From Candidatus Gastranaerophilales bacterium (GTDB lineage: Bacteria > Cyanobacteriota > Vampirovibrionia > Gastranaerophilales > Gastranaerophilaceae), in NCBI GenBank assembly GCA_944326565.1, contig CALVEL010000001.1:62001-126000 (forward strand): a DNA stretch of 64,000 nucleotides. Reading direction: 5' to 3'. Under the pieces are notes generated by a model, which did not search any database, was not told where the DNA came from, and was given only the letters and a program-made list of their open reading frames with translations. The position numbers and the translations under genes are program-made. Shown here piece by piece: positions 180-35,191 of the stretch; position 1 is the stretch's first letter; every line of letters begins with the position of its first letter.

Positions 180-1067
180 ATGGGGAGAACAGACTTGGCA
201 AGAGTAAAGACTAATACAAAACTAAAACCGGTGAAAAAAGCGGATTTGCAAGTTGTAAAACCGGTTAAGACTACAAAATACAGTGATATTGATTTGAATA
301 ACTGGAAAGCATATGAGCATGTAAAAACAGATACTTTGTGGGAATTTCCGACAAGACTAAAAGAACATGGACATTCAAATGAATATCATGGCAATTATAT
401 TCCTCAAATTGCTCAACAGTTGTATGAAAGATTTACTAAAAAGAATGATATAGTATTGGATTTATTCTTTGGCTCTGGCACCTCAGGTATTGAGGCTATA
501 AATATGGGACGGCGCTGTATTGGGGTTGAGTTAAAAGATGAATTAGCAGAAAAAGTTTCTGAAAAATTCACCCCGAAACAACTAGTAACAGATGTAAGAA
601 TAATATGTGCGGATTCTGCCTCTGATGAGGTTAGAGATAAAATTCAAGCAGGGCTGGAAATTATGGGAGAAGACAAAGCTCAATTTTTAATTCTTCATCC
701 GCCATATGACGATATAATTAAGTTTTCGGATAAAAAAGAGGATTTGTCTAATTGTGCCTCAACAGAGGAATTTTACGATTTATTCGCAAAAGTAGCCAAA
801 AATGGTTACGATAAATTGGAAAAGGGCAGATTTGCCGCATTGATAATCGGGGACAGTTATAAAAATTCCGAAGTTCAGCCTTTAGGTTTTGAATGCATGG
901 CTAGAATGATGAATTTAGGTTTCAGGCTGAAAGGCATAATTGTAAAAGATATCCAAGGTAATGAAAGAGCTAAAGGCAAGACTGCAAACTTATGGCGGTA
1001 TCGTGCTTTAGCTGGCGGATTTTTCATTTTTAAACATGAATATGTAATGATTTTTCAAAAAGTATAA
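180..1067 (+). CDS. Orphan DNA N4/N6-type methyltransferase
   Basis: Likely an S-adenosylmethionine-dependent DNA methyltransferase of the N4-cytosine/N6-adenine group. The SAM-binding motif FGSGT lies at about residues 97-101 and is followed by the acidic strand end IGVEL. The catalytic motif reads HPPY at about 173-176, where most relatives have D/N/S-PPY. The order, SAM motif before PPY motif, is seen directly. There is no neighbouring endonuclease or specificity subunit, so it looks like an orphan enzyme; its target cannot be read from sequence. The first 40 residues are Lys-rich and may bind DNA. Its stop lies 12 bases before the start codon of the next reading frame, which enters a G12 tract. 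Confidence 0.8.
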   Translation: MGRTDLARVKTNTKLKPVKKADLQVVKPVKTTKYSDIDLNNWKAYEHVKTDTLWEFPTRLKEHGHSNEYHGNYIPQIAQQLYERFTKKNDIVLDLFFGSGTSGIEAINMGRRCIGVELKDELAEKVSEKFTPKQLVTDVRIICADSASDEVRDKIQAGLEIMGEDKAQFLILHPPYDDIIKFSDKKEDLSNCASTEEFYDLFAKVAKNGYDKLEKGRFAALIIGDSYKNSEVQPLGFECMARMMNLGFRLKGIIVKDIQGNERAKGKTANLWRYRALAGGFFIFKHEYVMIFQKV

Positions 1068-1101
1068 AGGAGCTGGAAATGCAGGCTATGATTGAAATTC
1101 T

Positions 1102-1113
1102 GGGGGGGGGGGG
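1102..1113 (+). repeat. G12 homopolymer tract 1 (G12-CACCCG)
   Basis: Twelve consecutive G residues followed by CACCCG. The tract lies eight codons into a reading frame that starts at ATG 1079, preceded by AAAGGAG. With 12 Gs that frame stops at 1124; with 11 Gs it would run into the prepilin-like frame and add 45 residues to its N-terminus. The same G12-CACCCG motif occurs at 13509 and 34494. Confidence 0.95.
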
Positions 1114-1214
1114 CACCCGAAAATAAGCTCCTGAGTGGTAGAAAAATAAACCGATTGCATACTGACTATAAAAATGGTAAAATGAATATTATATTAGGTA
1201 ATAAAGAGGTCAGT

Positions 1215-1829
1215 ATGAAAAAAGCATTTACAATGGCAGAAGTATTAATTACTTTGGGAATTATAGGTATTGTTGCTGCAATGACAATGCCAATGATTAT
1301 AAGTAAAGCCGAAAGAATGATTTTAGCCCAGCAGTTTAAGAAGATGTATGCAAATCTTTCTAATGCAATTAATTTAGTATCAGAAAAATATGGTGGTTCT
1401 TACGAATGCTATAATACATCATATGGTAATTACCATACTGCGGATTGTAAAGTTTTTTGGAGTGAAATGATCTCACAAATGAATATAGTTCACAGTTGTT
1501 ACCCAGGGGTAGCTGGTTGTCGACCTACTTATAAAACAAAAGCGGAAGTATTATCATTAGGTGGAAATGTAAAAAATACAGCTTGTACAATGAATGTATC
1601 AGGAAAAGTTTATTACCTCACAGATGGTTCAATGATAGCTTTCCAAAATACAGATGTATTTTTTGTAATTGATATAAATGGTAAAAAAGGTCCTAATAGA
1701 TGGGGTTACGATGTTTTTTATATGAATTTAAATAAAAAAAATCAGTTGGTAAATGTAGTGCCTATTGATTTTATTTGTGCGATGAAAGAAAAAGGTGGTA
1801 TGTATGTAGAAGAGATGCTGAGGGAATAA
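1215..1829 (+). CDS. Prepilin-like protein (type IV pilin/pseudopilin family), member 1
   Basis: A 204-residue secreted pilin-like protein. It opens with MKKA|FTMAEVLITLGIIGIVAAMTMP, a class III prepilin signal in which a peptidase would cut before Phe and leave a hydrophobic helix with Glu at position 5. Ala rather than Gly precedes the cleavage site. The remainder is a Cys-containing globular domain with a GKKGPNRWGYDVF stretch that recurs in the other family members here. This start is chosen because AAAGAGG lies five bases upstream; a longer form starting at 1079 would need the G tract to lose one base. It probably serves as a minor pilin or pseudopilin for the pil machinery encoded elsewhere in the window. 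Confidence 0.85.
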   Translation: MKKAFTMAEVLITLGIIGIVAAMTMPMIISKAERMILAQQFKKMYANLSNAINLVSEKYGGSYECYNTSYGNYHTADCKVFWSEMISQMNIVHSCYPGVAGCRPTYKTKAEVLSLGGNVKNTACTMNVSGKVYYLTDGSMIAFQNTDVFFVIDINGKKGPNRWGYDVFYMNLNKKNQLVNVVPIDFICAMKEKGGMYVEEMLRE

Positions 1830-13406: not shown

Positions 13407-13499
13407 TTTAACCTGTTGAATGTAGACGCTTATTTTGGTATAATACCCATTGTTAAGAATATAGTAAAGGAGGAATTAAGGTGAAACACAGTCAGGATA

Positions 13500-14285
13500 A
13501 TGCTTTCAGGGGGGGGGGGGCACCCGTATAAAAGCCCTGCTTTGGGATTTGGATTCACAATAGCAGAGGTTTTAATTACAATTGCTATAATTGGGGTAGT
13601 TATAGCAATGACATTACCTTCTATTATTCAAAAACATCAAGAAAAAGAATGGGTCACAGCATATTTAAGAGTATATGCTATTTTAGAAAATGCATACAAA
13701 ATGGCTCAGGTTGAAAATGGAACTTTTGATAATTGGGCAGGATGTACATTAACTTTAGCGAATGATGGTGAATATAATCGTACAGCAAGCGATGGAATGA
13801 AGGTTTTTGATATGGTAATTAGACCATATGTAAAAACTAATGTTACTATTGAAAATCTTGCTACATGGAATGACAAAAATTGTTGGCCCGATAAATCTAA
13901 TGATCTATTTGGTGATGATGCATCTATGGATAATAGTCATAGAGTTCCTGCCGTTAGTCTTATGTCAGGGGAGTGTATTATATTAGGTCATCCACATGCT
14001 GATTTTATGGTAGATCTAAACGGTAAAAAAAGACCTAACACAATAGGTAAAGACCAGTTTATGTTTTCATTTGATATTACAAAAAGAACTCGTTTAAAGC
14101 CTGGATATCATCAGAGATGGTGGACAGATTCTCCTGTATATTGTCATGAAAGCAAATCAAGTGCAGATGCGGGCTGGACACCTGGTGCATCTTGTGGTTT
14201 TTGGATTTCGCGTTATCATAATATGGATTATTTGCATATGTCATATGAAGAATTAAAGAAAAAGTGGAATGGCGGTTGGTGGTAA
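13500..14285 (+). CDS. Prepilin-like protein, member 2, with G12 tract in its leader
   Basis: A pilin-like protein whose leader would be cut at LGFG|FTIAEVLITIAIIGVVIAMT, giving the class III signal with Glu5 and an N-terminal helix. The body is Trp- and Cys-rich, with VDLNGKKRPNTIGKDQF shared with other members. Two starts are possible. GTG 13481 has a strong ribosome site (AAAGGAGG) but with 12 Gs runs into a stop at 13529. ATG 13500 is in frame with 12 Gs but has only AGGA two bases upstream. With 11 Gs the GTG start would read straight through. Efficient expression may therefore depend on tract length. Confidence 0.8.
   Translation: MLSGGGGHPYKSPALGFGFTIAEVLITIAIIGVVIAMTLPSIIQKHQEKEWVTAYLRVYAILENAYKMAQVENGTFDNWAGCTLTLANDGEYNRTASDGMKVFDMVIRPYVKTNVTIENLATWNDKNCWPDKSNDLFGDDASMDNSHRVPAVSLMSGECIILGHPHADFMVDLNGKKRPNTIGKDQFMFSFDITKRTRLKPGYHQRWWTDSPVYCHESKSSADAGWTPGASCGFWISRYHNMDYLHMSYEELKKKWNGGWW
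13509..13520 (+). repeat. G12 homopolymer tract 2 (G12-CACCCG)
   Basis: Twelve consecutive Gs followed by CACCCG, ten codons after GTG 13481. Downstream, CACCCG is read in frame as His-Pro in this gene, whereas at the other two loci it falls in another frame and gives Ala-Pro. Conservation is thus at DNA level. Confidence 0.95.
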
Positions 14286-34435: not shown

Positions 34436-34464
34436 TTAAAATTTAAAAAAAAGGAGTGAATTTG

Positions 34465-35191
34465 ATGAAAAAGCGCACTATGACTGGATTTATGGGGGGG
34501 GGGGGCACCCGAGAATAACGCTCCTGTAAAGGTTAAAGAAAAATTTTTAGGATTTACTTTAGCTGAAGTATTGATAACATTGGGGATTATTGGTGTAGTT
34601 GTCGCAATGACTTTACCGTCATTGATAGGCAAGTATCAGGAAAAGCAGTGGAAAGTAGCTTATAAAAAGGCATATTCAGGTTTTTCACAAGCATTTTTGC
34701 GATTGCAGGAAAATGGTGAATTGCTTAGTATGACACCTGAAGGTTATGATGAAAACGGAACTGCAATAAGTCCTGGAGTAGGCGAGAATTTCAAAAAGAT
34801 ATCCAAATATTTCAATGCAGTAAAGACTTGCTTTGATAATAATGCAGATGAATGCTGGGTATGCGATGAAGGACAAGCAGGATATTATTATTCATCAGCA
34901 CCTGATTATTTGGGGTGTACAAGGTCTAGTTACGCCTTTAAAGATAATTCAGGTATGGCGTGGTATCTATATAGAAATACAGAATGGCCTATTTTAGTTG
35001 ATGTAAACGGAGATAAAAGACCTAATAGATTAGGTCAGGATCGTTTTGTAATGCGTTTTGCTGATAGTAGAGATGCAGGTAATAATTATGCATCAGAAGC
35101 AAATGTTATTAAACCTTTGAGTGATATAGAGGAAAAAGGTCGTTGGTGTCCTAGCGGTCATTGTCTTTATACAACTTGGCTTTTGCATTAG
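34465..35191 (+). CDS. Prepilin-like protein, member 4, out of frame at a G12 tract
   Basis: A prepilin-like locus whose 5' part is out of frame with the rest. ATG 34465, preceded by AAGGAG, reads MKKRTMTGFMGGGG and stops at 34516. The pilin frame from 34484 on reads through GGGAPENNAPVK, then LG|FTLAEVLITLGIIGVVVAMTLPS, but has no ATG or GTG start after a TGA at 34481. Losing one G (12 to 11) would join the two and give a 29-residue leader ending in Gly. The body is closely related to the minus-strand gene at 40233. As sequenced, the gene should be off. A base-count error in the tract is the main alternative. Confidence 0.8.
34494..34505 (+). repeat. G12 homopolymer tract 3 (G12-CACCCG)
   Basis: Twelve Gs followed by CACCCG, ten codons after ATG 34465. 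After CACCCG the sequence GAGAATAACGCTCCTG closely matches the AAAATAAGCTCCTG after tract 1, so the shared motif extends about 20 bases beyond the Gs. Confidence 0.95.

Follow-up and report, generated by a model that had tools for sequence, protein, structure and literature searches.

How is a prepilin gene expressed when a run of 12 Gs puts it out of frame with the start codon ahead of it? The question is raised by an open reading frame (ORF) in a 64,000-nucleotide stretch of DNA from a Gastranaerophilales genome; we refer to this whole stretch as the window. Our analysis, which is based on sequence comparisons, suggests that the gene is probably a translational ON/OFF contingency locus, with a poly-G tract in a type IV prepilin-like leader, and that it is one of 32 such loci in the genome.

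The focal locus

The original prediction was that a G12 tract separates a strong GTG start from a prepilin frame, and the tract, the Shine-Dalgarno sequence (SD), and the frames are all as it described them (Table 1). The tract begins 28 nt past GTG 13481, that is, the homopolymer lies within the 5' part of the ORF. With 12 Gs, translation from this GTG gives 16 amino acids (MKHSQDNAFRGGGAPV) and ends at the predicted stop codon, and with 13 Gs it gives 27 amino acids. With 11 Gs, the same start reads through LGFG/FTIAEVLITIAIIGVV, as had been proposed, and yields a prepilin of 267 amino acids. ATG 13500 had been considered in frame but poorly served by a ribosome site. Its frame is indeed open to the end (261 amino acids), and no SD-like motif is found 4-11 nt upstream of it; the closest AGGA stops 2 nt short of it.

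Table 1. Features of the focal locus and of the two other G-tract prepilin loci in the window
Feature	Positions	Strand	Details
G12 tract	13509-13520	+	One G too long for the SD-backed start
SD AAAGGAGG	13466-13473	+	7 nt upstream of GTG 13481; from the sequence
Sigma-70-like promoter, TTGAAT-17-TATAAT	13416-13444	+	10/12 in a consensus scan; chance matches of this kind also occur
Leader ORF from GTG with 12 Gs	13481-13531	+	16 aa, stop TAA 13529-13531; from translation
ATG in the prepilin frame	13500-13502	+	Without SD; poor alternative start
CACCCG right after the G12	13521-13526	+	Genus-specific; G9-CACCCG search
GCCCT	13534-13538	+	Degenerate form of the GCTCCT element found at most other loci
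Prepilin-like ORF	13500-14285	+	Predicted prepilin peptidase site between G13553 and F13554 (GFG/FTIAEVLI); TIGR02532-type N terminus
Second locus	1067-1829	+	SD AAGGAGCT 1067-1074, ATG 1079, G12 1102-1113, AGCTCCT 1126-1132, prepilin; one G too long
Third locus	34451-35191	+	SD AAGGAGTG 34451-34458, ATG 34465, G12 34494-34505, CGCTCCT 34519-34525, prepilin; one G too long

The N terminus of the focal protein has the G/F-T-x-A-E cleavage and methylation motif and a hydrophobic helix, and TIGR02532 is above its cut-off at G000:C1:75551-75616, which is the focal gene. The structure model (a long N-terminal helix at 21-73, then strands) is poor, with a mean pLDDT of 53. We infer from the sequence that the product may be a surface pilin; the products of these loci could form pili, pseudopili, or minor subunits.

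Other loci in the window and the genome

The original prediction understated the case: the window contains three G12 tracts, and all three follow an SD-backed start, lead to a prepilin, and are one G too long. A chance origin of the tracts can be ruled out, as shuffled sequences are expected to contain 0.02 runs of at least 9 Gs per 64 kb, versus 12 overlapping matches that we observed from these three tracts. Across the whole genome (1.87 Mb), 32 of the 33 tracts of at least 10 Gs have an SD-backed start before them and a prepilin after them. This anatomy can be read directly from the DNA. Of the 72 prepilin N-terminal motifs in the genome, about 44% lie behind a G tract. We saw no copy without a prepilin in the genome, which speaks against a mobile repeat cassette. 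The sole tract outside this family is a G10 at position 501-510 of locus L078; it lacks a start or a prepilin and lies beside an AAGCAAG/CTTG inverted repeat.

Two loci of one and the same genome (L092 and L100, the latter at a contig end) share their leader and N terminus but have 12 and 11 Gs, respectively. Another two prepilin genes (L083 and L087) are 99.7% identical over 650 nt, yet their leader and spacer modules differ, which suggests that gene conversion or module exchange may occur among prepilin loci. G-tract prepilin-type leaders are also found near mutS in two genomes of the genus (L065 at G000:C1:315445 and L298 at G012:C4:139250).

More broadly, the motif G9-CACCCG is present in 13 of the 14 genomes of the genus but missing in all 45 genomes searched from elsewhere in the family, order, and class. 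In a scan of the entire collection, the matches listed from outside Gastranaerophilales were mostly scattered single ones.

Tract phase across the genus

We scored 125 loci from 12 genomes of the genus; at each of them, exactly one frame reaches the prepilin motif. Their tracts have 10-14 Gs. One G too many is present at 93 loci, while 21 are in frame and 11 have one G too few. The skew among the out-of-frame loci (93 versus 11) has P = 2.5e-17 if loci are treated as independent, which paralogues are not. When each distinct leader context was represented by a single locus, the counts were 79 (too many), 20 (in frame), and 10 (too few). All 10 genomes that have an out-of-frame locus lean toward one G too many, and in genome G012, all 20 of the scorable loci are in that phase. 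Paralogues and orthologues do differ in phase among themselves.

The modal tract length is 13 where 12 Gs would be in frame (22 of 42 loci), 12 where 11 Gs would be in frame (62 of 69), and 11 where 10 or 13 Gs would be in frame (9 of 14). Tract length depends on this class (chi-square P = 2.6e-20, again treating loci as independent although paralogues are not). Because the modal length shifts with the in-frame length, it is the phase that is conserved and not the length, and an equilibrium length of 12 can be ruled out as the cause of the bias. A model with both length and phase had an AIC of 218, versus 283 for length alone; in its fit, one G too many carries 5.5 times the weight of in frame and about 7 times the weight of one too few. 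Substitutions at the tract borders, which would alter the length but not the phase, seem to account for much of the variation in length. This comparison of 125 homologous loci supports the proposal that tract slippage could control expression.

Orthologues and relatives

An orthologue of the focal gene in G001 (96% protein identity and 95.1% DNA identity; L444) has the same two neighbors, ftsZ and an aldolase gene, and retains the G12. In two other cross-species pairs, with 92.6 and 97% DNA identity, the tract is also unchanged. A more distant homologue in G004 (L445, 42% identical) starts with TTG, its leader is unrelated, and its tract is a G13; it too needs one G fewer. All 14 genomes of the genus have MutS and MutL, which rules out the loss of mismatch repair. 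Given the unchanged tracts in orthologues of 92.6-97% identity and the presence of MutS and MutL, slippage may be slow.

The layout of SD, ATG, and at least 10 Gs is found in 91 of the 239 genomes of the family, from 20 of 41 genera, and almost never in the reversed control; this search covered tracts of 10 Gs or more. In other genera, the leaders are unrelated and often precede prepilins. The phase varies there: 10 of 12 loci in G034 need one more G, which is opposite to the focal genus; 4 of 7 loci in G155 are also in the opposite phase; and in G022, from another genus, all three phases occur for the same in-frame length. Four loci from other genera (L325, L335, L341, and L351) have tracts of 11-15 Gs in the N-terminal part of long ORFs with apparent Sec-type signals; these tracts are in frame or one G too long. 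Judging from these sequences, surface proteins besides prepilins may be switched in other genera of the family. Four genomes of genus g10 (G022, G082, G109, and G134) have over 200 G11 matches each, far above the number of prepilin switches found there.

A proposed switch that would turn on by losing one G

We propose that translation begins at the SD-backed GTG or ATG and then passes through the G tract. Where the tract has one G too many, translation would end after about 15-17 codons and no pilin would be made. Loss of one G during replication would join the start to the prepilin leader, and prepilin peptidase would cleave this leader off later. Replication slippage is our proposed route of switching. 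A point against free phase variation is that the two OFF phases would be expected to be about equally common, and we observed 93 versus 11. However, if deletion is the commoner slip in these bacteria as well, then one G too many would be the OFF state nearest to ON, and the observed bias would follow if selection favored an OFF state that can be reversed. On our analysis, being off but one deletion from on would then be the favored resting state.

A different explanation of the bias is programmed slippage without any change to the DNA: RNA polymerase leaves out one G, or there is a +1 shift on the ribosome, so that genes with 12 Gs yield a fixed fraction of prepilin and one G too many is the functional state. 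We consider this unlikely, but it does account for much of the data. One phase is kept across three in-frame length classes (modes 13, 11, and 12) and has by far the highest fitted weight, G012 is uniform, orthologues retain their tract length, and L445 has again one G too many behind an unrelated leader; within the genus, programmed slippage fits as well as a DNA switch. Against it, 21 loci are in frame and 11 are in the third phase, and shared recoding would not predict the mostly opposite phases of G034 and G155 or the mixed phases of G022. Also, an Rfam search at the focal locus did not identify any known RNA element. We favor a switch by replication slippage, as a probable rather than a certain reading.

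An element complementary to the Shine-Dalgarno sequence

CTCC, almost always as CTCCT, occurs 13-16 nt past the tract at 121 of 141 loci; the figure for a control stretch is 4 of 137. Relative to the ON frame, GCTCC begins at each of the three codon positions (42, 34, and 28 loci), which implies that the element is kept as nucleotides and not as protein. The SD AGGAGC is the complement of GCTCCT, and the two are paired in minimum-energy folds at 95 of 119 loci. These predicted folds suggest that a hairpin with the GCTCCT element may hide the SD. Judged by eye, the outer pairs of the helix showed no convincing covariation; covariation is unable to prove this helix because one side is the SD itself, so the core cannot vary. 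The element is mostly missing in other genera (10 of 69), and the focal gene has only the degenerate form.

The loci of the genus might also make up a coordinated bank: tens of prepilins whose genes are kept one G out of frame, with slippage in RNA or on the ribosome allowing them to be read at a low but tunable level, with the SD in a hairpin with GCTCCT, and with DNA slippage adding variants that are fully ON. This idea is speculative and we doubt it.

Start codons and the ON frame

Between the tract and the cleavage motif, the ON frame has no stops in 5,623 spacer codons, versus 8.7% stops in the other two frames, although this is partly by construction, as loci were scored by reaching the prepilin motif. 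Just 16 loci with a start failed to score, and several of these are at contig ends. ON-frame spacers are open for up to 225 codons. Some of the spacers (L122-L135, L151, L152, and L282-L309, from several genomes) contain translated dispersed repeats, such as CHPEG...ILRFAQND or RHSELDSES, that are kept open in the ON frame.

Alternative starts are ruled out as a general mechanism by our survey of start codons. First, 70 of the 125 loci have no ATG, GTG, or TTG between the tract and the cleavage site. Second, upstream of the tract, all 104 out-of-frame loci lack an in-frame start that is backed by an SD: the in-frame start codons there are TTG (64 loci), ATG (2), or GTG (1), all without an SD, and the other 37 have none. 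On sequence grounds, then, the real start is the SD-backed one that precedes the tract. An SD-like start does lie between the tract and the prepilin at 28 of the 125 loci, as at the first window locus (GAGGTC before ATG AAA AAA GCA), and these loci could have some expression regardless of the tract.

As for the focal gene, it is very improbable that it is expressed from ATG 13500 regardless of tract length, with the tract being incidental. That ATG is in an open frame and is kept in the 96% identical orthologue, but it lacks an SD, and since the out-of-frame loci have no SD-preceded start upstream, this alternative would be peculiar to the focal gene and that orthologue. Assembly errors that hide true in-frame tracts are hardly credible either: our data include one assembly per species, assembled homopolymer lengths are often wrong, and the annotated 11 Gs of a Bifidobacterium breve tract are a minority form, so assembled lengths can mislead (PMC9187656), but such errors would need to add exactly one G to tracts that are truly 10, 11, and 12 long, and to do so at nearly all loci and across many assemblies, and in-frame loci of equal lengths were also assembled.

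Comparison to known switches

In the open-access literature, we did not find any report that links Gastranaerophilales to phase variation or that describes this family of prepilin switches. The closest analogues are in other bacteria. In Neisseria, the pilus-associated adhesin PilC, which has a Sec signal and two gene copies, varies in phase by a poly-G tract. There too, frameshifting in a run of Gs turns a pilus-related gene on or off, and the run lies near the start of that gene, ahead of or inside the export signal; in Gastranaerophilales, the genes encode the prepilins themselves and there are many copies.

In B. breve, the sortase-pilus loci bbr_0113 and bbr_1889 have a short SD-backed ORF and a pilin ORF that are joined only after one G is lost, as experiments have shown (PMC9187656). 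The OFF form predominates in culture, the mouse gut enriches for the ON form, and deletions far exceed additions at one of the two tracts (PMC9187656). The likeness to our loci is close: a gut commensal, a short SD-backed upstream ORF, a G10-12 tract, a pilin ORF without its own SD, and an ON state with one G fewer (PMC9187656). However, B. breve is Gram positive and has one or two loci per genome for sortase pili, whereas here there are 32 loci in one genome for type IV prepilins, and neither the bias in phase across paralogues nor the GCTCCT element is described in that study (PMC9187656). Campylobacter has about 20 genes per genome that are switched by simple sequence repeats, mostly poly-G, also in a low-GC gut bacterium (PMC6321876). 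Those tracts are mostly of 9-10 Gs and affect genes with mixed functions, and the fraction that is ON in draft genomes was reported to be near the neutral expectation (PhasomeIt; PMC6321876). In contrast, our loci have 10-14 Gs, belong to one gene family, and are strongly skewed in phase.

Overall, the number of paralogues, the strict bias toward one G too many, and the element complementary to the SD are unusual.

Implications

Gastranaerophilales are common but mostly uncultured, non-photosynthetic relatives of cyanobacteria that live in the gut, and their contact with the host is poorly known. If our explanation is true, then each genome would have a bank of up to about 30 switchable prepilins, and these bacteria would gain a means of surface variation. 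The switch genes would be mis-annotated as truncated or as wrongly started. The strict phase of one G too many would make a testable case: selection may act on the state in which a contingency locus rests, or slippage may be programmed.
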